Source of the DNA: Acidobacteriota bacterium
Lineage (GTDB): Bacteria; Acidobacteriota; Blastocatellia; UBA7656
DNA length: 64,000 nucleotides
Assembly (NCBI GenBank): GCA_038040445.1
Contig: JBBPIG010000001.1
Coordinates: forward strand, 30,402-94,401
Direction: 5' to 3'
Positions within the stretch are counted from its first letter, which is position 1; the number at the start of each line of letters is the position of its first letter. The translations under genes and the position numbers were made by a program. Below, piece by piece: positions 21,168 through 35,455 of the stretch. The notes beneath the pieces are model-generated. The model saw nothing but the letters and a program-made list of their open reading frames with translations. It was not told where the DNA came from and made no database searches.

Positions 21168-22910
21168 ATGAATGCATTAAAGCGATTCGTTGTTGCGGCG
21201 TTCCTGCTCTCGCCGCTGCTTCTCACGTTCACCGCGCGGTCACAGTCTCAGACTCAACCGGCGCAGCCCCCGGCAACCGACGACAAATCGAAAGAGGCCG
21301 CCGAAGAAGGTATCCCTGTCACGAACCAGCTAGTAATCGACCGCTGCTCGTCGTGTCACAAGAAGGATGAGAAGGGCCGCCTCACTCGAATCTCCTTTGA
21401 GCGCACGACTCCGGAGGGATGGCAACAGGTCATCAAGCGGATGATTCGGCTCAACGGCCTCACGCTCAGTCCGGAGGAGGCCAGGCAGATCGTCAAGTAC
21501 TTGAGCAACAATCACGGGCTTGCGCCTGAAGAAGCCAAGCCTGCGTTCTACGAAGCTGAAAAACGGGTCATCGACGAGAAGTTGCCTGACGAGAGCCTGC
21601 GAGCTACGTGCGTGATATGTCACAGTCTTGGGAGGGTCCTCTCGCAGCGTCGCTCGAAAGAAGAGTGGGAGCTGTTGGGGAACATGCACGTTGGGCTCTT
21701 TCCGGTTGTGCAGTTTCAGGGTTTCTATCGTTTCCCGCAGCCTGCTGGCGCGCCGCCTCCGACCGACCCCGATCAGCGACATCCGCTGGATAAGTCGCTC
21801 GACTACCTGGCCAAGAACTATCCGCTCACCACGCCCGAGTGGGGCGCGTGGCGCGCGAATATGCGAGCGCCCAGACTCCAGGGACGCTGGCTGGTCAGCG
21901 CCTATCAAGTCGGCAGCGGTCAGATCTACGGAGAGATGATAGTTGAGCCGGCTCAGGTTGAAGACGAGTTCACTACCAAGCTCAAGCTGCGCTATGTCAA
22001 AGACGGTTCGACCGTGACCCGGGCCGGTCGCGGGATCGTGTACTCGGGCTATAGCTGGCGCGGGCGCGCGACCTCGAGCGACGGCAAGGAGCCGGGCGAG
22101 AATCGCGAAGCGATGCTCGTGTCGCGCGACTGGACGACAATGGAAGGTCGCTGGTTTTGGGGCGCGTACGATGAGTTCGGCATCGACGTGACTCTACGAA
22201 GAATCACCGCCGAACCGTTGATCGCCGGAGTTGATCGCGTGGGGCTCAAGTCGCCCTCGACCGGTGTTCAGGTACACGTCTATGGAGCCAACCTCCCAAG
22301 CGACATCAAAGCCGACGAAATCGACTTCGGCCCAGGCGTGAAGATCAAGCGAGTCGTCAGCGCGAAGAGCGACGACGTGACGGTTGAAGTTGACGTTGTC
22401 GAAGGCTCGGCGAACGGCTACCGCGATATTTCGCTTCGCAGATATTTCGCGCCGCGCGCGGTCGCCGTTTTCGATAAGGTCGACTACATCAAGGTCAACC
22501 CTGACGCTGGAATGGCCCGGGTGGGCGGCGTGGCCTTCCCGAAGCAGTTTCAGCAATTCGGCGCCGTCGCTTACAATCGCGGTCCCGACGGAAAGCCCCA
22601 GACTCCCGACGATGTCAGTCTGGGAATCGCCGACGTCGAATGGTCGATAGACGAGTTCCCCGCGACGTTCGATGATGACGACAAGGACTTCGTAGGCGCG
22701 CTTTCCGGCAATGGGTTGTTCACCCCCGCGGTGGACGGGCCAAATCCCAAGCGGAAAAAAGGTGTTAACAACTACGGCGACGTGTGGGTTGTCGCCACCT
22801 ATAAACCAAGAGATGCCGCGAAAGATGCCCAGCCCTTGAAGGCGCGGTCTTATCTTGTTGTAACCGTCCCGCTCTACGTGAAGTGGGACCAACCGGAGGT
22901 GTCTCGATGA
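21168..22910 (+). CDS. qhpA: Quinohemoprotein amine dehydrogenase alpha subunit (dihaem)
   Basis: 580 residues. A signal peptide (FVVAAFLLSPLLLTFTARS) is followed by an N-terminal dihaem region with C60-SS-C63-H64 and C148-VI-C151-H152. The remainder is beta-rich (RLQGRWLVSAYQVGSGQIYG, VHVYGANLP, FRR-type immunoglobulin-like domains), as in the 60-kDa alpha subunit of quinohemoprotein amine dehydrogenase. The subunit carries electrons from the CTQ cofactor of the gamma subunit to a periplasmic acceptor. The stop overlaps the qhpD start (ATGA). The following rSAM and gamma genes make this identification firm. Confidence 0.93.
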   Translation: MNALKRFVVAAFLLSPLLLTFTARSQSQTQPAQPPATDDKSKEAAEEGIPVTNQLVIDRCSSCHKKDEKGRLTRISFERTTPEGWQQVIKRMIRLNGLTLSPEEARQIVKYLSNNHGLAPEEAKPAFYEAEKRVIDEKLPDESLRATCVICHSLGRVLSQRRSKEEWELLGNMHVGLFPVVQFQGFYRFPQPAGAPPPTDPDQRHPLDKSLDYLAKNYPLTTPEWGAWRANMRAPRLQGRWLVSAYQVGSGQIYGEMIVEPAQVEDEFTTKLKLRYVKDGSTVTRAGRGIVYSGYSWRGRATSSDGKEPGENREAMLVSRDWTTMEGRWFWGAYDEFGIDVTLRRITAEPLIAGVDRVGLKSPSTGVQVHVYGANLPSDIKADEIDFGPGVKIKRVVSAKSDDVTVEVDVVEGSANGYRDISLRRYFAPRAVAVFDKVDYIKVNPDAGMARVGGVAFPKQFQQFGAVAYNRGPDGKPQTPDDVSLGIADVEWSIDEFPATFDDDDKDFVGALSGNGLFTPAVDGPNPKRKKGVNNYGDVWVVATYKPRDAAKDAQPLKARSYLVVTVPLYVKWDQPEVSR

Positions 22911-24340
22911 GCGCTTATCGACAAGGCGAGTTTCACGCATTTGAAGGCGGAGGACAGAGCTATCTTTACCTGGTTCCAAGCGCTGCGATTTTTGCGCTTG
23001 AAGACCTGTCTGGCGCGGTGCTCGATCTGCTCAAGGACCGCGAGCTGACCAGGGACCAGATTGTTGACGAACTTATGGGCGCCGGATATGCGCGCGCGAA
23101 TATCGAGGAAACTCTCGAAGAACTTCATCAGGCGCATGCGATTGCGCTGGGCGAAGGGTTCGTCGAGCCGAGACTGGAAGCGCCGCAGCAACCGTTCCCG
23201 CTTCAGACGGTTGTCATGAACGTGACCAATCAGTGCAATCTGAGTTGTTCGTATTGCTACGAGTACGGCGAAGACCGCATCGCAACGCCCGAAGGCAAGA
23301 CGAAGTTCATGAGCGAGGAGACCGCTCGCGGGACGGTGGACTTCCTGCTGAATCAATCGCCCGGACGCCGCATGGTCCATCTAACCTTTTTCGGCGGCGA
23401 GACCTTGCTCAACTTCAAAGTCGTGAAGTCCACGATTGAATACGCGCGCACCAAAGCGGCTGAGATGGGCAAGTACATCGACTTCAGCATGACCACCAAC
23501 GCGACGATGTTGACTTCGGAGATTATAAGCTTTCTCGCCGAGAACAACGTGGGCGTGACGGTCAGCATAGACGGCCCGAAAGAATCGAACGATCGCTTTC
23601 GCGTCTTTCACAACGGGAAGGGAAGCTATGACGTGATCGCCCCGAAGATCAAAGAGCTGGTGAAAGTTCACCGCTCGCGGCCGATCGGCGCGCGGGTGAC
23701 GCTGACGGCTCAGGTGATCGACGTGAAAAAGATATTTCGTCACCTGACGGAAGAGATGGGATTCGACGAGGTCGGGTTCGCGCCCGTAACCACGTCGCCC
23801 GTGCGGCTGTACGCAATCGGCAACACGGGACTCGATCACGTGCTCGATCAGTTCACGGAGCTTGCCGGCGAGTATCTCGACTATGCGCTTGAAAACAAGC
23901 ATCACGGATTTTCTAACGTCAACGACACGCTTCAAGAACTGCACCAGGGAGTGAGCAAGGCTTATCCGTGTGGCGCGGGGCTTGGGCTGCTGGGAGTTGC
24001 GCCGTCGGGCGATATCGGACTTTGCCATCGGTTTGTTGATTCGCCGGCGGGGAAGCTTGGGCACATCGATACGGGCATTGATCGCGAAGCGCAGGCCGAA
24101 CACCTCAATCGCGCTCACATCAATACCAAGTACGACTGTCATACTTGCTGGGCGCGGCCGGTTTGTTCGGGCGGCTGTTATCACGAAGCTTACGTCCGCT
24201 ACGGTGACACCTCACATGCGAATTTGCACTATTGCGATTGGATTCGCGGATGGACTGATGTGTGTTTGCGAATCTACGGCGAGATCGCCGCGCGCAATCC
24301 GAAGTATCTCGAGCGGTTCGATGAAAGGAAAGCCATATGA
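22907..24340 (+). CDS. qhpD: Radical SAM maturase of QHNDH gamma subunit
   Basis: 477 residues. QhpD forms the Cys-to-Asp/Glu thioether cross-links in the gamma subunit, in the cytoplasm. An N-terminal PqqD-like part (residues about 1-90) precedes the radical SAM motif C110-NLS-C114-SY-C117. TFFGGETLLNF is the SAM-binding GGE region. C-terminal auxiliary-cluster Cys are in CGAGLGLLG, LCHRF, YDCHTCWARPVCSGGC and LHYCDW. ATG 22907 overlaps the qhpA stop and follows GGAGG. The stop overlaps the qhpC start, so maturase and substrate peptide are coupled. Confidence 0.95.
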   Translation: MSAYRQGEFHAFEGGGQSYLYLVPSAAIFALEDLSGAVLDLLKDRELTRDQIVDELMGAGYARANIEETLEELHQAHAIALGEGFVEPRLEAPQQPFPLQTVVMNVTNQCNLSCSYCYEYGEDRIATPEGKTKFMSEETARGTVDFLLNQSPGRRMVHLTFFGGETLLNFKVVKSTIEYARTKAAEMGKYIDFSMTTNATMLTSEIISFLAENNVGVTVSIDGPKESNDRFRVFHNGKGSYDVIAPKIKELVKVHRSRPIGARVTLTAQVIDVKKIFRHLTEEMGFDEVGFAPVTTSPVRLYAIGNTGLDHVLDQFTELAGEYLDYALENKHHGFSNVNDTLQELHQGVSKAYPCGAGLGLLGVAPSGDIGLCHRFVDSPAGKLGHIDTGIDREAQAEHLNRAHINTKYDCHTCWARPVCSGGCYHEAYVRYGDTSHANLHYCDWIRGWTDVCLRIYGEIAARNPKYLERFDERKAI

Positions 24341-24672
24341 AACACCTGAAAGCCATCAACCGGAAGGCCCGGCGAGTGGAGGAGTTTATCGCCTCGGAGT
24401 ACGGCGACGTTCACGCGCTTCAACAGCCTCCCCCGCAGCGGCCTCATTATCCGCTCGGCTGTTCGCTGGTTTTTTCGCCGGGATGGGAAACGGACTCGGC
24501 GGGAGGAACCGCTGGATTGTGCCAGCCGGTTGAGCGCGATCTGTACGATTGCTACATCACTTGCTTCTGGCCGGCTCAGGTGCCCGACCATTTCAACAAC
24601 TATCCGGATTGGACCAGCAAGTGCGCGAGCGCGACGAAGGATTGGCGGAACATCGATCTGGTCTTTCCGTGA
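24337..24672 (+). CDS. qhpC: QHNDH gamma subunit precursor (CTQ-bearing, multiply cross-linked)
   Basis: 111 residues. An unusual leader of about 35 residues (MKHLKAINRKARRVEEFIAS...) precedes the core. All cross-link residues known in Paracoccus and Pseudomonas gamma subunits are present at exact spacing: C42-E51, C62-D68 and C76-D84 for thioethers, and C72-W78 for cysteine tryptophylquinone. These correspond to mature 7-16, 27-33, 41-49 and 37-43. The motif WPAQVPD and PDWT follow. An extra Cys near the C-terminus (TSKCAS) has no known role. It is modified by QhpD, then hydroxylated, trimmed by QhpE and exported. Confidence 0.96.
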   Translation: MKHLKAINRKARRVEEFIASEYGDVHALQQPPPQRPHYPLGCSLVFSPGWETDSAGGTAGLCQPVERDLYDCYITCFWPAQVPDHFNNYPDWTSKCASATKDWRNIDLVFP

Positions 24673-24776: not shown

Positions 24777-25883
24777 ATGCGAATCAAACTTTCTCTCATA
24801 GCGGTTTTGCTTCTTGTTGTCGCGCCGGCCTACGCGCAGCAACCAAGCCAACCCACCGGTGCTCTGATGTACCTCGGCACCTGGCCCAATAAGATCCTGG
24901 TTATTGATGAAGCCAAGCAACAGGTGATCGACGAGATCAAACTCGAGACCGGCGCGCCTCTCCAGGTCGTGCTCGCTCAAGACAAGAAGAAGCTGTTCAT
25001 TCTTACAACCAAGATGGGAATCGAAGTGGTCGACCTCGCTACGCGAAAAGTCACCAGCCATTTCGACCTCAACGAAGGCAATCGCCGAGTATATCCGTTA
25101 GGCGCGGCGCCCGACCCTCTGGGCAAATACATCTACGCCACATTGCGGACCTCTATCAAGGAGATTGACCGCTACAAGATTGAGAAGCCCAAGTTTGTGG
25201 TGATCGATCTGGAGCAAAAGAAGATCACCAAGACTTTCGATTTCCCAAAGGAGTTCGATCAGGGCTTCGGGTTCTTCGCCGGCTACAAAGTCTCGCCCGA
25301 CGGAAAGCTGTTGTACGTGTTCAAGGAAGATATCCTGATCTTCGATCTGACCAATTTCAAGCAGGTCGACAAGATCGAGCTTTCAAAGCCGCTCTACCCC
25401 GGGCTGTTTCCGATAAACGTGCGGGGCGACGACGATCCAAATGAGGAACCGGGCTACGTCACATCGGTGTTCAATGCCACCGATCCAGTCGTGCGGCGCG
25501 CGATATTTGGCATCGCCAGGATAAACCTGTTAACGAAGAATGTGGATTTCACCCCGATAGGTCCTGCAGCGCCTATGAACAGGTTCTATCTGACGCCGGA
25601 TCGGAAGAAGGGCTACACGGTTACGTTCAGCGGGCAGGGTGGAAACCGGCGGACTGAGTTTTGGGTGTTCGACGTCACCGCTCGAAAGGTGATCAAGAAG
25701 CTCGAGTTCGAGAGCCGTGCGCGATTTAATTTCGCAGTAAGCGGCGACGGGCGCAAGCTTTACATCTACGGCGCGGGGCCGACGATCGAGATTTACGATG
25801 CCGATACGTTGACGCTGGAGAAGACAATAACGCTCGACGGCGACGCGATCACGCAATTGCTGGTTCTTCGTCCTCAATCTTAG
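24777..25883 (+). CDS. qhpB: Quinohemoprotein amine dehydrogenase beta subunit (beta-propeller)
   Basis: 368 residues. A clear signal peptide RIKLSLIAVLLLVVAPAYA is followed by YVTN-type propeller blades (GTWPNKILVIDEAKQQVID, YKVSPDGKLLYVFKEDI, NFAVSGDGRKLYIYGAG). The seven-bladed beta subunit forms part of the active-site cleft in the periplasm. ATG 24777 follows GGAGG nine bases upstream; the open frame extends upstream through the repeat but would add a non-signal peptide. Order qhpA-D-C-B is as in known operons. Confidence 0.92.
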   Translation: MRIKLSLIAVLLLVVAPAYAQQPSQPTGALMYLGTWPNKILVIDEAKQQVIDEIKLETGAPLQVVLAQDKKKLFILTTKMGIEVVDLATRKVTSHFDLNEGNRRVYPLGAAPDPLGKYIYATLRTSIKEIDRYKIEKPKFVVIDLEQKKITKTFDFPKEFDQGFGFFAGYKVSPDGKLLYVFKEDILIFDLTNFKQVDKIELSKPLYPGLFPINVRGDDDPNEEPGYVTSVFNATDPVVRRAIFGIARINLLTKNVDFTPIGPAAPMNRFYLTPDRKKGYTVTFSGQGGNRRTEFWVFDVTARKVIKKLEFESRARFNFAVSGDGRKLYIYGAGPTIEIYDADTLTLEKTITLDGDAITQLLVLRPQS

Positions 25884-25904
25884 AGGTCAGCCGAGTTGAA
25901 GATA

Positions 25905-25994
25905 CCTGTACGGGCGTCCCTCCGCGTGGCGCCCTCCTTCCTCCTAAGAGCGTCTCACAACGAAGGGGCGCCCGCGGAGGGACGCCCGTACAGG
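25905..25994. repeat. CCTGTACGGGCGTCCCTCCGC fold-back repeat
   Basis: The left arm 25905-25934 and right arm 25963-25994 are complementary for about 28 bases with one or two mismatches (ACGGGCGTCCCTCCGCG against CGCGGAGGGACGCCCGT). The loop is about 30 nt. It lies between qhpB and the first U32 gene. It could act as a strong transcript hairpin. Confidence 0.92.
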
Positions 25995-26036
25995 TCGGCG
26001 TAAACACACTCTTGATCCGAGTCTTCCTTGAACCCT

Positions 26037-26975
26037 ATGGACTGGAGCATTCACGTCAGCAACGCAGCGGAAGTCAGGAGCGGCCTGAGCGCACTTGAGC
26101 CCGCGAGCTTCGACAGCGGGTCGAAACTCGCGCCTGTCGTTCAACTGACGCAGAGGCTCATTTACGAACTGTTTGGTCCGATTGCCTTCAGCCGTTGCGC
26201 TTACGGGAATGAGTTCTGCGAGCACTTGATTCCCTCGCCCGACCAGCTCGAAGCTGTTGTTACCGCGGCGCGCGACCGTGAAATCGGCCTCACCTTACTG
26301 ACGCCTTATGTGACCGATGCCGGGATAGATTTGCTCAGGCCTCTGTTCGAGGTGCTTAGCGCGAACGGCGAAAGCGAAGTCGTGTTCAACGATTGGGGCG
26401 TTTTGAATCTGCTTCGCCGTGAGTTTTCCGGCTTGAAGCCCGTTCAAGGGCGGTTGATGAACAAGTCCTTGCGCGATCCGCGCGTTACCGGCGTCTATGC
26501 TGCAAGCGACGCGCCGGCGCCGGCGCTCGTATCGCTGCGCCGCTCGAATCTGGACTGCGCCAGCTACACCGGATTCTTGTCGGGATTAGGAGTCGAGTCG
26601 GTTGAGGTGGACAATCTGCCGCAAGGCGTCGATCTGAGCTTCGCGGAAAACGGCGTGAAGGCTAGCGCGTACGTGCCCTTTGGGTTCATCAGCACGAGCC
26701 GCATCTGCATGGCGGCCGGTATTCACTACGATAAGCGCGACAAGTTCCAACCGGGAGCGCCTTGTCATCACGAGTGTCAGACTCATCTGCTCGAATATGC
26801 TTACACGAACACGCCGTTCGAGAACCGGGATCAGAAGTTCTACCTCAAGGGCAACAGTTATTTCTACGTTCACACGGAAGCGATGCTGCGCGGCCTGTTC
26901 GAGCAAGCTCGTGCCGGCCTCATCGACCGAATCGTTTTTCAACCACAGTTGCCTATGACGTGGGAGCGAGCTTGA
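26037..26975 (+). CDS. U32-family protein, UbiV-like cysteine pattern, in the qhp operon
   Basis: 312 residues from ATG 26037 (TTG 26028 is also open). Features are SRCAYGNEFCEHLIPS (C54, C61), a TIM-barrel-like middle, then C224-x18-C243-x3-C247 in SRICMAAG and APCHHECQTH. A single N-terminal Cys region combined with a late C-x(n)-C-x3-C resembles UbiV, the partner of UbiU in oxygen-independent ubiquinone hydroxylation. U32 proteins with Fe-S clusters hydroxylate aromatic or tRNA/rRNA substrates, some using prephenate. It sits five bases before a second U32 gene. A role in CTQ formation is inference; a peptidase role is less likely. Confidence 0.75.
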   Translation: MDWSIHVSNAAEVRSGLSALEPASFDSGSKLAPVVQLTQRLIYELFGPIAFSRCAYGNEFCEHLIPSPDQLEAVVTAARDREIGLTLLTPYVTDAGIDLLRPLFEVLSANGESEVVFNDWGVLNLLRREFSGLKPVQGRLMNKSLRDPRVTGVYAASDAPAPALVSLRRSNLDCASYTGFLSGLGVESVEVDNLPQGVDLSFAENGVKASAYVPFGFISTSRICMAAGIHYDKRDKFQPGAPCHHECQTHLLEYAYTNTPFENRDQKFYLKGNSYFYVHTEAMLRGLFEQARAGLIDRIVFQPQLPMTWERA

Positions 26976-26979
26976 AGTC

Positions 26980-27993
26980 ATGAAAGTTCTTGCGCCAATC
27001 AGCTCATACGATGAATTGGAGATGCTCGCGGCGAGCGGGGCAGAAGAATTCTATTGCGGCGTCGTTCCGCGGGAGTGGCTCGATCGCTACACGGGAGCGG
27101 TCTGGCTGAACCGTCGCAGTCCGAAGGGCGGGAGCCTTGAAACTTTCTCCGAGTTGAAACGGCTGGTAGAAGGCTCGCACCGGCTGGGCATTCCGGTTTT
27201 CCTCACGCTCAACGCTCCGTACTACACGGCTGAACAGATGTCGTGGGTGATGGAGCTCGCTCGAGCGCTTGATGGCGAAGCAGGAATTGACGCGTTGATC
27301 GTGACCGACATCAATCTGCTGATGCAGCTATCGAAGGCGAAGCTGAACGCAGCACTGCACGTCAGCTCCGTCGCCGCGACCTTGAACACCGAAGCGATTC
27401 GCTTTCTGCTTCAGTTTGGTCCGAGCAGAATCATTCTGCCTCGAAGCCTGACCATTCCTGAGATAGAGAGGATCGTGAACGCCACTCGTGATGAAGTCGA
27501 AATCGAAGTCTTCATGCTCAACGACGGCTGCGCCTTTGAAGAAGGCTTTTGCGCGACCACTCACCATCACACGGTCGGCGCCTTCTGCACCAGTCTCTCC
27601 GAAATGGACACGGAGTTTGAACGCAGCGGCGGGCGCGAGCTTACGCGCAGGCAGAATTCGCGGCTGCGCCGAAACCTCACCGACTATCGCGAATGGATCT
27701 GGTATGTAAATGGCAACGGCTGCGGGGCAACAGCGAACGGTCTACCGTACGGGCCGTGCGGGTTGTGCGCGATTCACGACTTCCAGCGAATCGGCGTGGC
27801 TTCATTGAAGATCGTGGGCCGCGAAGCTTCGCCGTTTAAGAAGCTCGCCAGCGTGCGAATGGTTCGAGCGATCGTCGATCAGGTTCGAAGCGGGCCGGAT
27901 AAGCTGGTAGTGATCGAACGGGCGAAGTCCTTGCGCGGCGACCGCAAGCATTGCGACTCCGGATATATGTGCTACTACAAAGTTGAAGCGTGA
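26980..27993 (+). CDS. U32-family protein, UbiU-like cysteine pattern, in the qhp operon
   Basis: 337 residues, clearly U32: MKVLAPISSYDELEMLAASG, AEEFYCGV, HVSSVAATLNTEAIRFL and RIILPRSLTIPEI. The Fe-S cysteines are C184-x6-C191-x11-C203 in NDGCAFEEGFCATTHHH, plus C260 and C263 in PCGLCAIHDF, followed by VASLKIVGREAS, the usual U32 ending. C325 and C331 are extra. The pair with the preceding gene mirrors the UbiU-UbiV heterodimer. The stop overlaps a GTG that opens the repeat-bearing leader of qhpF. It may hydroxylate the gamma-subunit Trp without O2, or modify another substrate. Confidence 0.85.
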   Translation: MKVLAPISSYDELEMLAASGAEEFYCGVVPREWLDRYTGAVWLNRRSPKGGSLETFSELKRLVEGSHRLGIPVFLTLNAPYYTAEQMSWVMELARALDGEAGIDALIVTDINLLMQLSKAKLNAALHVSSVAATLNTEAIRFLLQFGPSRIILPRSLTIPEIERIVNATRDEVEIEVFMLNDGCAFEEGFCATTHHHTVGAFCTSLSEMDTEFERSGGRELTRRQNSRLRRNLTDYREWIWYVNGNGCGATANGLPYGPCGLCAIHDFQRIGVASLKIVGREASPFKKLASVRMVRAIVDQVRSGPDKLVVIERAKSLRGDRKHCDSGYMCYYKVEA

Positions 27994-28006: not shown

Positions 28007-28088
28007 CCTTGCGTCTTTGCGAGTCTTAGCGTGCTTTGCGGGAAACCGGGTTCGCGCAGAGCACGCTAAGACTCGCAAAGGCCGCAAA
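28007..28088. repeat. CTTTGCGAGTCTTAGCGTGC fold-back repeat
   Basis: The left arm 28007-28040 and right arm 28053-28088 pair around a short loop (GGAAACCGGGTT). The words CGAGTCTTAGCGTGC and GCACGCTAAGACTCG are exact complements. It is the same word family as 5636-5701 and 53588-53675. It fills the gap between the second U32 gene and qhpF and is open in the qhpF frame. Confidence 0.92.
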
Positions 28089-28094
28089 CTTCAA

Positions 28095-29885
28095 ATGAAC
28101 AACGACTATAGGCGAATCTTCGACTACATCTTTCCGTACTGGCGCAGGCTGGCGCTTGTGCTTGGGTTAAGTCTCGTCTCGACTCTTGTCGGCTTAGCTC
28201 AACCATACATAACCAAGCTGCTGATCGACGAAGCGCTACTCCGGCGCGACAGGCAAGCATTGACGATGGTCGCGGCGTTGATGGTCGTTGTGACTGTGCT
28301 CGGGTTCGCGCTGAACATAGCGAGCAGCTATCGCTATATAGCAGTATCGGCGGCGGTGTTGTTCGACATGCGGCTTGCGGTTTACAAACACCTGCAGAAG
28401 CTGTCGCCGCGGTTTTACACTCGCACGAAACTCGGAGAAATCGTTTCGCGCTTGAACAACGACATCAGCGAGGTGCAACGCGTCGCCGCCGACACGCTGC
28501 TTGCGGCCATCAGCAATTTCATTTTTCTTATTGGCAGCGTGACGATAATGGTCTGGCTCAATTGGAAGCTGTTCTTGTTGAGCATTCTGCTCATCCCTGT
28601 GTCGGTGATCGCGCTGAAGCACTATCGCCAGAAGCTCACCGACAGAGTGAGAGAGATGCGCGAGCGCAGCGCCGACATCGGAAGCTTTCTGATCGAGAGT
28701 TTGATGGGCATGCGTCTGGTCGTGACGTCAAACACTCAGGACACGGAAGTCGCTCGATTTCGGCAGAAGAACCAAGGCTTCGTCGACGCGCTGCTATCGA
28801 TGCAACTCGTATCTTACTTCGCCGGTGTGCTGCCGGGAACGGTGCTGACGCTGAGCACCGCGCTGGTGTTCCTCTATGGCGGCAAGCTGGTCATCGACGG
28901 CGTGATGGAACTCGGCTCGCTGGTGGCGTTCATGGCTTATCACATGCGCCTGCTTGCGCCGGTGCAGAATCTGATGGGGCTTTACACTAGTATTGCTACT
29001 GCGCGCGTGTCCTTGAATCGAGTATTCGAGATACTTGACACCCCGGTCGAAGTGAATGACGCGCCCGATGCCGTCGCGCTTCAGGCTGTAAGAGGTGAGA
29101 TCGAGTTCGACGACGTCACGCTCAAGTACGATCGCGACACTGTAGTCCTTGACGCGGTGAGCTTCAAGATTCCTGCCGGTTCGCTTTGCGCGATTGCCGG
29201 GCCAAGCGGAGTCGGCAAATCGACGGTAGCCGACTTGTTGCTTCGATTTTACGATCCACAAGCCGGCACGATTCGGCTGGACGGTCACGACCTGCGCGAT
29301 ATTCGGCTTGTCGATTTGCGCAGAGAGGTTGTTCTCGTCGAGCAGACGGCTTTCCTGTTCAACGCAACCATCGCCGAGAACATAAGGTACGGCCGGCCCG
29401 AAGCGACTCGAGAAGAAATCATTCGAGCTGCGAAGGCGGCCTCCATAGATGGTTTCATTCGCGCATTGCCGGACGGCTACGACACAGAGGTCGGCGAGCG
29501 AGGGCAGGCGCTTTCGGCGGGCGAGCGCCAGCGCGTCGCTCTAGCGCGCGCTCTTTTGAGAGACCCCGCGGTGCTGGTCCTCGACGAGCCAACCGCCTCG
29601 GTCGATCCGATCACCGAGCAGACGATAGCCGCCGAGCTTGCGTCGGTGATGCGAGGGCGCACGACGGTGGTCATATCTCACCGGCTGTCGCTGATCGAAC
29701 GCGCCGACTGGGTGATAGTGATAGACGACGGCAAAGTGATCGAGACGGGCCGGCCTGCCGAACTACTAGCGAGCGGCAAGGCGCTCGCGACCCTGTTCTC
29801 CTACCTGCCCCAGGAAGCAAATGATCCGCGTGAATCCGTCAAATCAGTGTCATCCGTGGTCTATCGAAGGAACGAAACGAAATAG
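28095..29885 (+). CDS. qhpF: ABC transporter (permease-ATPase fusion) of the qhp operon
   Basis: 596 residues from ATG 28095; a GTG at 27990 would add 35 repeat-encoded residues. Six membrane helices ([15 protein letters not shown] onward) are followed by the nucleotide-binding domain: Walker [10 protein letters not shown]-loop VEQTAFLFN, signature LSAGERQRV and Walker [14 protein letters not shown]. QhpF is thought to export the modified gamma subunit. The C-terminal tail [20 protein letters not shown] is encoded by the left arm of a fold-back repeat and is not part of the transporter fold. The next gene is the protease qhpE. Confidence 0.92.
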
Positions 29886-29944: not shown

Positions 29945-30679
29945 GTGGAGACGATCGAGAAACTCACATTAGTGCGCGAACCCTTTGCTAGCTACACCGG
30001 CCGAGGCGTTAAGGTCGCAGTCATCGATAGCGGAGTCAACCCCGCTCACCCCCACGTCGGCGGTGTGGCCGGCGGCGCGAGAATAACCGCGAGCGAAGCG
30101 GACTCTTCGAACGATTATCTGGACTTCATCGGTCACGGCACCGCCGTCGCAGGGGCGATTCGTGAAAAGGCGCCCGATGCGCAGCTCTACGCCGTCAAGG
30201 TCTTTGACCGCGCGCTGACAACTAACATCGAAGCGATCATCAAAGCGATCGATTGGTGTGTCGAGAATCAAATCGATGTCATCAACTTGAGCCTGGGCAC
30301 CGTGAACCTGGAGCATCGGGATAAGATCGAGAGGGCCGTCGCGCGCGCCGCAGAGAAGGGATCTGTTCTTGTCGCGGCGCGCGAGATGTCCGACAAGTCG
30401 TCCTTGCCCGGCTGTCTTTCATCGGTTATCGGTGTGACTGCGGATTGGGAGTGCGCGCGTGACCGCTATGACGTGAATCGCTCGGATGTCGATCCGGTGT
30501 TCATCGCGTCTGCATACCCTCGCGATATCCCGGGCGTGTCGCGTGAGCGCAATCTGAACGGCATCAGCTTTGCGGTGGCGAATATGACCGGCTTCGTGGC
30601 GCGCGCGAGAGAGTTCGCGCCCAATGCTTCGATTGATCAGCTCAAGCGCTTGCTGGTCGAAGAGTCAACGAACGAATGA
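29945..30679 (+). CDS. qhpE: Subtilisin-like leader peptidase QhpE
   Basis: 244 residues, no signal peptide, so cytoplasmic. The S8 triad is Asp in VAVIDSGVNP, His in DFIGHGTAVAG and Ser in LNGISFAVANMTG. It is shorter than secreted subtilisins because there is no prodomain, as known for QhpE, which cuts the leader from the cross-linked gamma subunit. GTG 29945 is the only start close to the core. The stop overlaps the next ATG (ATGA), coupling it to the formylglycine enzyme gene. Confidence 0.92.
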   Translation: METIEKLTLVREPFASYTGRGVKVAVIDSGVNPAHPHVGGVAGGARITASEADSSNDYLDFIGHGTAVAGAIREKAPDAQLYAVKVFDRALTTNIEAIIKAIDWCVENQIDVINLSLGTVNLEHRDKIERAVARAAEKGSVLVAAREMSDKSSLPGCLSSVIGVTADWECARDRYDVNRSDVDPVFIASAYPRDIPGVSRERNLNGISFAVANMTGFVARAREFAPNASIDQLKRLLVEESTNE

Positions 30680-31851
30680 AGAAGGCGATGCAATCAGCGA
30701 ATGAAAGGAGCAACGCATCATCGGCTCGCTCAAGGCCCCGGCTGTTGTACGGCGTCGCTGTAGTTCTCACTTTGGCCGCGTCAATCGCATTCTTCCTTGG
30801 CAAGGATAAGTGGTTGGCCCAGCGGCGGGATGCTTCGCACCCGGCTCAACACTCAGGCGGTCACGGCTCCAGCGCAAAGCAGCCGGATGCGGAATCAGCC
30901 GCGCTTGTCAGCATAAGCAGCACACCGCCGCCCGGCACGGCGCCGGATGGCATGGTCTGGATTCCCGGCGGGACGTTCTGGATGGGTTGCGATGACTGCG
31001 ATATGCCGGACACGCAGCCCGTGCATCTGGTTGCCGTGGATGGCTTCTGGGTGGACAGCACACCGGTGACGAACGGCCAGTTCGCGCAGTTCGTGAAAGC
31101 CACCGGTTACGTCACAATCGCGGAACGCAAGCCAGATCCGAAAGACTACCCCGGAGTGGATCCGGGTAAGCTTGTCGCCGGCTCGGCGGTGTTCTCTCCT
31201 CCCGCGAAGGATGTGGCTCTTGACGACATAAGGCAGTGGTGGGGATACGTGCCGGGCGCGAGTTGGAAGCACCCGGAAGGTCCCGCCAGCACGATAGAAG
31301 GCCGTGAGGATCATCCGGTAGTGCATATCGCTTGGGAGGACGCGGTCGCTTATGCGAAGTGGGCAGGGAAGCGTTTGCCAACCGAAGCGGAGTTCGAGTT
31401 TGCCGCGCGCGGCGGAATGGATCGCAACCGTTACGCGTGGGGCAACGAGTTGAAGCCGGGCGGCAAGTGGTTAGCGAACATCTGGCAGGGCCGCTTTCCT
31501 ACAAACGACCTTGCCGAAGACGGTTATCAGCGCACGTCGCCGGTTACCGCTTTTCCGGCTAACGGCTTCGGCCTGTGCGACGTGGGCGGCAATGTTTGGC
31601 AATGGTGCGCCGATTGGTATCGCCCCGATTATTTCGCGACGCTGGCGGCGAGCGGAGTGAGTAGGAATCCGCAAGGTCCGGCGGATAGCTACGATCCTCA
31701 GGAGCCGGGAATCGCCAAGCGCGTGCAGAAGGGCGGCTCTTTCTTGTGCAGCGACCGCTATTGCTCGCGGTACCTAGTCGGGAGCCGAGGCCGAGGCGCC
31801 GTTGACAGCGGAGGATCGAATACTGGTTTTCGGTGTGTGAAATCGCAGTAA
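30676..31851 (+). CDS. Membrane-anchored formylglycine-generating enzyme (SUMF1 family)
   Basis: 391 residues. A membrane helix (LLYGVAVVLTLAASIAFFLG, residues about 24-43) precedes the FGE fold: GMVWIPGGTFWMGCDDCD, VDGFWVDSTPVTNGQFAQFV, HPVVHIAWEDAVAYAKWAGK and RLPTEAEFEFAARGG. The copper-site Cys are C357 and C362 in FLCSDRYCSRY, and the end is NTGFRC. This Cys pair marks true FGE, which converts the sulfatase Cys to formylglycine. The likely client is the sulfatase at 33077. The anchor suggests it works outside the cytoplasm. It is translationally coupled to qhpE, which is unexpected. A PvdO-like oxidase role is a less likely alternative. Confidence 0.88.
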   Translation: MKKAMQSANERSNASSARSRPRLLYGVAVVLTLAASIAFFLGKDKWLAQRRDASHPAQHSGGHGSSAKQPDAESAALVSISSTPPPGTAPDGMVWIPGGTFWMGCDDCDMPDTQPVHLVAVDGFWVDSTPVTNGQFAQFVKATGYVTIAERKPDPKDYPGVDPGKLVAGSAVFSPPAKDVALDDIRQWWGYVPGASWKHPEGPASTIEGREDHPVVHIAWEDAVAYAKWAGKRLPTEAEFEFAARGGMDRNRYAWGNELKPGGKWLANIWQGRFPTNDLAEDGYQRTSPVTAFPANGFGLCDVGGNVWQWCADWYRPDYFATLAASGVSRNPQGPADSYDPQEPGIAKRVQKGGSFLCSDRYCSRYLVGSRGRGAVDSGGSNTGFRCVKSQ

Positions 31852-33076: not shown

Positions 33077-35455
33077 ATGAATAGAACTAAGATGTCGGTT
33101 CTAGCGCCGATCAAAATCGCGGCACTGGCGATGGCGCTAGCGGCGGTCTTTATGCTCGGCCACGGCTTGAGCACAGCAACGGAGCAGCAACAGGAGCCGC
33201 AGCGCAGCAGCATTGGCCGATCTTACAAAGACTCGAAGCCGGCGTGGGAGTTGCCGCCTCAACCGCCTAAGGGCGCGCCTAACGTCATCTACCTGGTTCT
33301 CGACGACGTGGGCTACGCGCAACTTGGCTGCTACGGCTCGGAGATTCAGACGCCGAACCTTGATCGGCTGGCCGCGGGCGGGTTGCGCTACAGCAACTTT
33401 CACACGACCTCGCTGTGCTCGCCGTCGCGCGCGGCTTTGTTGACCGGGCACAACCATCACAGCAACCATCTTGGGGTAATAACCGAGGCCGCGACCGGCT
33501 ATCCCGGCTACGACGGCCGGATGCCGCGAAGTCAGGCGACGATCGCCGAGATATTGAAGCAGACTGGCTACAGCACATTCTACGTTGGCAAGTGGCACCA
33601 GGCGCCGCTATCAGAAACAAGCGACGCGGGCCCTTACGACCATTGGCCGCTTGGAATGGGCTTCGAGCGGTTCTACGGCTTTTTGGGCGGCGAGACAAAC
33701 CAGTGGTTTCCCGATCTGGTCTACGACAATCACCGCGTCGAGCGTCCGCAGCGGCCGGGCTATCACTTGACTGAAGACTTGACCGACCGGGCGATTCAGT
33801 TCATCACCGAACAGAAGCAGGTCACACCCGACAAACCCTTCTTCCTCAATCTGGCCTACGGCGCCGGTCACGCTCCTCATCACGTCGCCAGGAAGTACAT
33901 CGAGATGTACCGAGGCAAGTTCGATAAGGGATGGGACAAGGTTCGCGAGGAAACGCTCGCTCGGCAGAAGCAAATGGGCATCGTACCGGCCAATGCTCAG
34001 CTTGCGCCTCGCAACTCTGATGTTAAGGCCTGGGCCGAGCTATCCAACGATGAACGGCGATTGTACGCGCGGATGGAAGAGGTCTACGCCGGGTTCCTGA
34101 CTCACTGTGACGAAAACATCGGCCGGTTGCTTAGTTTTCTCAACGAGGGAAACCTGATCGAGAACACTCTGTTGGTCGTCGTCTCCGACAACGGCGCGAG
34201 TCAGGAGGGCCGCGAGGCCGGCTCGTTCAATGAGAGTCTGTACTTCAACCAGATTCCCGAAAACCTCGAGATGAATCTGAAGCTGATTGATGAGCTGGGC
34301 GGGCCAATGACCTATCCGCACTACCCGCTCGGATGGGCGATGGCCGGCAACACGCCGTTCAAGCGCTACAAGCAGGAGACGCACGCGGGTGGAATCACCG
34401 ACCCGTTGATCATTCACTGGCCGAAGACGATAAAAGAGAAGGGAGGCATTCGGAGCCAGTATCATCACATGATCGACATCACGCCAACGGTGCTCGAGAT
34501 GATCGGGCTTCAACAGCCGCGAGTGGTGAATGGCGTCGATCAGCGGCCGATGGACGGACTGAGCATGGCTTACACCTTTAGCGACGCGAAGGCGCCAAGC
34601 CGGCGTGAGACTCAGTACTACGAGATGCTCGGCCACCGCGCGATCTACTACAAAGGGTGGAACGCCGTCGCTGTGCACGCGCGCGGCGATGACTTCGACA
34701 AGGACCGCTGGGAGCTTTACAACATTGACGAAGACTTTTCTGAGAGCAACGATCTGGCGGCGCAGAATCCCGGCAAGCTGCGCGAGATGGTCGAACGATG
34801 GTGGAGCGAGGCGGGAAGGTACAACGTCTTGCCGCTCGACGATCGAGGGGTCATACGCTCGCTAGAGCAGCCGGCGACCAATCGTCCGAGCACGATCGTG
34901 ACTTACTACCCGGGGATGTCATCGGTGCCCAGAGGCAACATGCTGAACTTCCGCAACCGCTCGTACAGCATAACCGCTGAGGTCGAGGTTCCGCGGAGCG
35001 GCGCCGACGGCGTGCTGCTCTCGTTCGGAGGGCGCTTTGGCGGGTTCAGCTTGTTCATGCAAAGTCATCGGCTGAGCTACGTTTACAACTGGGTTGGCCT
35101 CGAGCGCTACACGGTGACTTCGACAGAAGCTGCGCCTGCAGGATCAGTGAAGCTGCGAGTCGAGTTCACGAGTGCCGGCCCGAGCAGTGGGACAGCGGCG
35201 CTGTTCATCAATGACAAGCGCGTCGGCGAAGGGAAGATCGCGCGTCTGGTTCCTGTGACATTCGGACTGAGTGAAGGTCTGACGGTGGGCCGCGATCCCT
35301 CGACCCCGGTTACGGAGAGCTATCAGTCACCGTTCGAGTTCACCGGAAAGATTAAGAAAGTTGTGATGGAACTGAAGGAAGATCCTAAGCAGGCTCAGTC
35401 GAGCACTGTACGGCTTATGGATGAACGCGAGAAGAAGAGCTATGGCAAGAAGTAG
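33077..35455 (+). CDS. Secreted arylsulfatase (formylglycine type)
   Basis: 792 residues with an N-terminal signal (IAALAMALAAVFMLGHGLS). The metal-binding YLVLDDVGYAQLGCYG and sulfatase signature C114-S-P-S-R-A-ALLTGHNHH are intact, so C114 is the formylglycine site. Further sulfatase parts are VGKWHQAP, FLNLAYGAGHAPHH, VVVSDNGASQEG and GGITDPLIIHWP. A C-terminal beta-sandwich (about residues 620-770) follows. It hydrolyses a sulfate ester outside the cytoplasm; the substrate is unknown. The FGE at 30676 is the likely activator. GCAGGAG at 33064-33070 precedes ATG 33077. Confidence 0.94.
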   Translation: MNRTKMSVLAPIKIAALAMALAAVFMLGHGLSTATEQQQEPQRSSIGRSYKDSKPAWELPPQPPKGAPNVIYLVLDDVGYAQLGCYGSEIQTPNLDRLAAGGLRYSNFHTTSLCSPSRAALLTGHNHHSNHLGVITEAATGYPGYDGRMPRSQATIAEILKQTGYSTFYVGKWHQAPLSETSDAGPYDHWPLGMGFERFYGFLGGETNQWFPDLVYDNHRVERPQRPGYHLTEDLTDRAIQFITEQKQVTPDKPFFLNLAYGAGHAPHHVARKYIEMYRGKFDKGWDKVREETLARQKQMGIVPANAQLAPRNSDVKAWAELSNDERRLYARMEEVYAGFLTHCDENIGRLLSFLNEGNLIENTLLVVVSDNGASQEGREAGSFNESLYFNQIPENLEMNLKLIDELGGPMTYPHYPLGWAMAGNTPFKRYKQETHAGGITDPLIIHWPKTIKEKGGIRSQYHHMIDITPTVLEMIGLQQPRVVNGVDQRPMDGLSMAYTFSDAKAPSRRETQYYEMLGHRAIYYKGWNAVAVHARGDDFDKDRWELYNIDEDFSESNDLAAQNPGKLREMVERWWSEAGRYNVLPLDDRGVIRSLEQPATNRPSTIVTYYPGMSSVPRGNMLNFRNRSYSITAEVEVPRSGADGVLLSFGGRFGGFSLFMQSHRLSYVYNWVGLERYTVTSTEAAPAGSVKLRVEFTSAGPSSGTAALFINDKRVGEGKIARLVPVTFGLSEGLTVGRDPSTPVTESYQSPFEFTGKIKKVVMELKEDPKQAQSSTVRLMDEREKKSYGKK

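Follow-up and report, generated by a model that had tools for sequence, protein, structure and literature searches.

Gene content of the qhp operon

The DNA analysed here, referred to as the window, is a stretch of 64,000 nt from an Acidobacteriota bacterium (Blastocatellia; UBA7656; assembly GCA_038040445.1, contig JBBPIG010000001.1, positions 30,402-94,401). It carries a complete and compact qhp operon, the product of which is quinohemoprotein amine dehydrogenase (QHNDH) together with its maturation proteins. The genes are on the + strand in the order qhpA-D-C-B-U32a-U32b-F-E, at these window positions:

21168..22910, + strand: qhpA, diheme alpha subunit of QHNDH (TIGR03908, 500 bits, cut-off 274)
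22904..24340, + strand: qhpD, radical SAM enzyme for the Cys-Asp/Glu thioether cross-links (TIGR03906, 596 bits, cut-off 453)
24337..24672, + strand: qhpC, gamma subunit (NF037958, 138 bits, cut-off 50)
24777..25883 (start approximate), + strand: qhpB, beta-propeller beta subunit (TIGR03907 QH_beta, 83.7 bits, under the cut-off of 223)
26037..26975, + strand: U32a, UbiV-like partner, 312 aa (predicted TIM barrel with four invariant Cys; no Pfam or NCBIfam match)
26980..27993, + strand: U32b, UbiU homologue, 337 aa (Pfam PF01136, E 2.9e-33; hhalign to E. coli UbiU, E 1.9e-27)
28092..29885 (start approximate), + strand: qhpF, ABC exporter of the gamma subunit (Pfam ABC_membrane and ABC_tran; qhpF profile, 906 bits)
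29945..30679, + strand: qhpE, subtilisin-like protease that cuts the leader from QhpC (NF049966, 180 bits, cut-off 165)

The two adjacent U32-type genes between qhpB and qhpF, which the initial annotation had located correctly, are separated by a gap of 4 bases. The NCBIfam equivalog cut-offs are passed by qhpA, qhpD, qhpC, and qhpE and missed by qhpB, which is a clear match to a qhpB profile made from sister operons. The tryptophan and cysteine of cysteine tryptophylquinone (CTQ) and the three Cys-Asp/Glu cross-link pairs are kept in the QhpC of the window and in every other QhpC recovered. The thioether pairs are C42-E51, C62-D68, and C76-D84, with C72 and W78 for the cofactor (numbers of the mature Paracoccus protein plus 35).

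Inverted repeats, perfect and near-perfect, occupy both the gap between qhpB and U32a (window 25904-25995) and that between U32b and qhpF (28016-28079). The first of these, with 23-base arms, has no other copy in the genome. It is possible that the repeats flanking the U32 pair cause attenuation or processing of the transcript on either side. Directly 3' of qhpE is a gene resembling those for formylglycine-generating enzymes (30676-31848), with a sulfatase-like gene shortly beyond it (33077-35455).

The U32 proteins

U32b is a member of the Peptidase_U32 family (PF01136), with 115.5 bits against a gathering score of 22.4. Its best NCBIfam match is UbiU (NF047963), at 89 bits against an equivalog cut-off of 440, and its hhalign alignment with E. 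coli UbiU extends over 276 columns, pairing UbiU C169 and C176 with C184 and C191. On sequence, it is clear that U32b is homologous to UbiU, but is not UbiU itself. U32a has no significant match to any Pfam or NCBIfam family, including UbiV (NF047965), and profile comparison with UbiV (hhalign) returned E values of 0.009 to 0.16, which are marginal or not significant. UbiU and UbiV, both of them U32 proteins with a [4Fe-4S] cluster, pair as a heterodimer, and this hydroxylates a precursor of ubiquinone independently of O2 (PMC6747719), even in air (PMC10470549).

Four conserved cluster-type cysteines are present in each partner (33 U32a rows, 29 U32b rows). In U32a these are C61, C224, C243, and C247, invariant over the 33 relatives and arranged as one distant cysteine plus C-X18-C-X3-C, resembling the layout in UbiV, where the motif is C-X12-C-X3-C. 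C61 is aligned with UbiV C39 in the marginal hhalign comparison (E 0.009). The initial annotation had called this protein UbiV-like and added C54 to its cysteine set; the layout bears the description out, the likeness in sequence is marginal, and C54 is not conserved. The set read as UbiU-like in U32b (C184, C191, C203, and C260) is invariant in all 29 rows and, unlike UbiU, U32b has the further invariant cysteines C263, C325, and C331. As in the E. coli pair, then, two U32-type genes are adjacent, with the first two cluster cysteines of UbiU aligned in U32b. The qhp pair differs in being part of an operon for a protein substrate rather than lying among ubiquinone genes, and in having no UbiT neighbour.

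The family also includes TrhP and RlhA, which need prephenate, and in TrhP residues E162, C170, and C177 are essential (PMC6599085). U32b conserves this glutamate and both cysteines, with matching spacing, as E176, C184, and C191. Unlike the qhp pair, TrhP and RlhA are single-gene U32 proteins in E. coli and their substrates are RNA. U32a and U32b are proposed here to be [4Fe-4S] proteins, and would together form a heterodimer.

The AlphaFold models of the two U32 proteins are of good quality, with mean pLDDT values of 88.5 and 87.6. The top structural match of the U32b model is the U32 protein Mk0906 (5d88; Z 18.5, 210 residues, 2.8 A). The same structure is the top match of the U32a model (Z 13.4, 200 residues, 3.9 A), by a small margin over unrelated barrels. 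In the searches of solved structures, those below 5d88 were generic barrels, with no UbiU-UbiV entry among the matches listed.

The Pfam family name, together with the nearness of both genes to those for the exporter and the protease, could suggest that the U32 proteins are peptidases that replace or assist QhpE in removing the leader. QhpE is kept in nearly all of the U32 operons with a visible right flank, making a peptidase role unlikely; the invariant cysteine sets fit Fe-S hydroxylases and no known protease site, and oxygenation of the tryptophan would be left without an enzyme. This is the least probable of the explanations considered.

Distribution of the U32 pair and QhpG

QhpG, the flavin monooxygenase of the Paracoccus and Pseudomonas qhp operons, is an O2-dependent dihydroxylase of peptidyl tryptophan. 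It acts on cross-linked QhpC in the cytoplasm, and both of the oxygens that it introduces come from O2 (PMC7876137). In the operons described here the U32 pair is, like QhpG in Paracoccus and Pseudomonas, the part that varies while qhpD, qhpE, and qhpF stay; unlike QhpG, which uses FAD and O2, it is from an unrelated protein family.

The distribution of the two was surveyed using QhpC, not the U32 proteins, as the query, with the flanks fetched and annotated with profiles. The genomes searched were 396 from the window's phylum, 141 from Geobacter's order, 301 and 399 around a Burkholderiales MAG, and 64 from a related family, the Geobacterales and betaproteobacterial groups having been sampled because they surround U32-positive genomes. 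A total of 49 qhp loci were identified, with 29 having QhpG only, 16 the U32 pair only, and 4 neither. No locus has both. The exclusion that the initial annotation had expected such a survey to reveal is therefore strict (Fisher p 1.4e-9, with phylogeny ignored). Three of the loci with neither reach contig ends and the fourth, L031, comes from a genome with two qhp loci, the other of which has the pair. Within the window's phylum alone, QhpG or a QhpG-like protein is found at 23 loci, the U32 pair at 3, neither at 3, and both at none. In the Geobacterales, the pair is present and QhpG absent at all six qhp loci, among them that of the isolate Geobacter argillaceus.

Included in the 29 are four Acidobacteriota loci (L033-L036) with a strongly diverged QhpG-like protein beside qhpE. 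This protein has no Pfam match and scores 68 bits with NF049967 in L036; three of the four have GDG near the N-terminus, where GGG is usual.

The U32a alignment was used separately to scan species genomes, and 78 loci were identified. Many of these U32 pairs are without qhp genes. Pairs within qhp operons were found in Acidobacteriota, Geobacter argillaceus, other Desulfuromonadales/deltaproteobacteria, Burkholderiales, and other Pseudomonadota, and the commonest gene order in the U32-type operons is A-D-C-B-U32a-U32b-F-E. Variants occur, such as the split qhp systems of genome G371, with one locus A-D-C-B and a separate D-C-U32a-U32b-F-E (L031 and L032), and the similar partial loci L059 and L065. 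The Acidobacteriota loci L059, L069, and L073 each have one qhp gene missing within the fetched 20 kb. In L069 and L073 (Acidobacteriaceae) the order is A-C-B-U32a-U32b, qhpD was not found within 20 kb, and other catabolic genes are adjacent. Beside two of the non-qhp U32 pairs (L077 and L079) there are weak QhpG-like matches of 29 and 34 bits.

Phylogeny of the pair

On the QhpD tree, the label changes between U32 and QhpG at least four times. The U32-type L182 is beside the QhpG-type L156, and the U32-type L062 is within the group of L033-L036, which have the QhpG-like protein. The exchange at this step has thus happened repeatedly, and the two have never been seen together.

Trees of U32a and U32b each place the qhp-linked proteins in one clade, apart from E. 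coli UbiV and UbiU. In the former tree UbiV is far outside the qhp-linked clade, as are UbiU, TrhP, and RlhA in the latter. The few unlinked rows inside these clades are all from Acidobacteriota (truncated contigs, partial qhp loci, and L074). This grouping shows that the U32 pairs near qhp genes are not chance neighbours, as the initial annotation had allowed they might be.

Another explanation is that an ordinary UbiU-UbiV, or an RNA hydroxylase, has come to lie in the operon by chance, as could be supposed from UbiU being the best NCBIfam match of U32b and from the UbiU-UbiV-like cysteine layout. It is opposed by the separate clades and by the exclusion with QhpG. In addition, searches of the window genome and of Acidobacteriota and Geobacterales genomes gave no proteobacterial UbiA over the cut-off, and G000, G371, and G396 gave no UbiV homologue; there is therefore no sign of ubiquinone synthesis in those genomes. 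The betaproteobacterial genomes with qhp-U32 operons (G1155, G1268, G1273, G1277, G1285, and G403) have a separate UbiV. A canonical UbiUV function was rejected on the UbiA and UbiV searches, and this explanation is considered very improbable.

QhpG in the genomes with the U32 pair

In the QhpG-type loci seen, qhpG is located upstream of qhpA or past qhpE. The initial annotation had noted that there is no flavin monooxygenase gene between qhpA and qhpE, and since QhpG is not expected at that spot, the flanks and the genome needed checking. No QhpG-like ORF was found with the QhpG profile anywhere in the 64 kb window. The best match to this profile in the window genome is on contig 4 (195601-196698), at 152.8 bits. 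Genuine proteobacterial QhpG reach about 107-145 bits on the profile used; because true QhpG scores are this low, the profile score alone is not decisive and NCBIfam, context, and the tree were relied upon.

The contig 4 protein scores 288 bits as GoxB, 279 as LodB, and 184 as QhpG, and its gene is directly after one encoding LodA (Pfam LodA_N and LodA_C). It was rejected as a QhpG on these grounds and, given the higher GoxB and LodB scores and the adjacent LodA, most likely serves as maturase to another CTQ enzyme. The next match in this genome, on contig 7, was rejected as a halogenase/reductase-like flavoprotein. The genome search for qhpG foreseen in the initial annotation thus found none, and the result was the same in the other U32-type genomes searched. 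Across 25 such genomes, 23 are without a match above 66 bits, the exceptions being the window genome (153 bits) and G397 (179 bits), the best match of which was rejected on grouping with halogenase/reductase-like paralogues in the tree.

The contig 4 locus (L187, about 193750-196760) consists of the gene for a LodA-like CTQ oxidase and that for the LodB/GoxB-like maturase. Residues 472-501 of this LodA (WWPAQRPDE) are a weak match to the QhpC Pfam family (E 0.013). LodB and GoxB, like the qhp system, build cysteine tryptophylquinone; unlike the U32 pair, they are O2-dependent flavoproteins and act on the mono-hydroxylated tryptophan of a different host protein. There seem to be two routes to CTQ in the window organism, one with an O2-using flavoprotein and the other with the U32 pair. 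Because LodA and LodB imply the use of O2, this organism is probably not a strict anaerobe. NrfA, looked for as a mark of anaerobic respiration, was not found in the window genome, and what the organism would gain from O2 independence is less obvious than for strict anaerobes.

Probable formation of CTQ without oxygen

Quinone cofactors that derive from protein residues are generally ascribed to O2 chemistry. QhpG needs O2, therefore an anaerobe with a QHNDH operon needs another route to the cofactor. The Geobacterales members that PMC8516083 describes are strict anaerobes. The QhpC sequences found in this order keep the tryptophan, the cysteine, and all three thioether pairs, so CTQ is still expected to be formed. 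The U32 pair never occurs together with QhpG and is present in strict anaerobes, which suggests that it probably makes CTQ without oxygen.

On this evidence the U32a-U32b pair very likely replaces QhpG in the qhp operon as an O2-independent tryptophan dihydroxylase, with a probability of about 0.8. That the operon has swapped its O2-dependent step for a U32 pair was proposed in the initial annotation; the swap is now strongly supported by comparative genomics, and as its chemistry we infer tryptophan as the substrate, two oxygen insertions, and an oxygen source other than O2.

In the proposed pathway, QhpD would make the three thioether bridges in QhpC in the cytoplasm. The U32a-U32b heterodimer, with one [4Fe-4S] cluster per subunit, would then add two hydroxyls to QhpC W78 independently of O2; prephenate may serve as the oxygen donor or as a cofactor, by analogy with the U32 enzymes RlhA and TrhP. 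QhpE would cut off the leader, QhpF would export the gamma subunit, and the quinone and the Cys-Trp bond would be finished in the periplasm.

The main rival to this reading is that the pair has another job in the operon, such as assisting QhpD, making the Cys-Trp bond, or adding just a single hydroxyl, with the remaining oxygenation due to another enzyme or to autocatalysis. The first hydroxyl is indeed thought to be autocatalytic in LodA, GoxA, and methylamine dehydrogenase (PMC7876137), and the window genome does encode a LodB/GoxB-like flavoprotein. The other U32-type genomes searched, save G397, are without a match of LodB or QhpG grade. LodB, MauG, and the known autocatalysis depend upon O2 or peroxide, neither of which would be usable by strict anaerobes. 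That the pair and QhpG are exchanged one for one argues that the step is the same, and a pair in need of a helper gene as yet unknown is less economical. A different job for the pair is thus considered unlikely, if less so than either explanation discussed above.

Replacement of QhpG by the pair would answer how the quinone forms in strict anaerobes with QHNDH operons. The known U32 hydroxylases have RNA or quinone-precursor substrates and, to our knowledge, none acts on a protein. It is likely, at slightly lower confidence than the replacement itself, that the pair is, within its family, the first O2-independent hydroxylase known to act on a protein amino acid, dihydroxylating the QhpC tryptophan and completing an oxygen-free route to CTQ in anaerobes. 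If the swap is true, U32 hydroxylases extend from RNA and lipids to protein, with a substrate that is tractable for finding the oxygen donor. A literature search found no paper joining peptidase U32 and cysteine tryptophylquinone. Going by the title of a 2019 paper by Schmitt et al., two QHNDHs reportedly start anaerobic amine degradation in Aromatoleum, and that work may anticipate part of the present finding.

UbiU/UbiV-like pairs were also seen in two archaeal MAGs (L110, 8523-9956, and L134, 12907-14295), within a few kb of the radical SAM maturase HxsB of the His-Xaa-Ser system. This is possibly another case of U32 pairs being linked to the modification of peptides.
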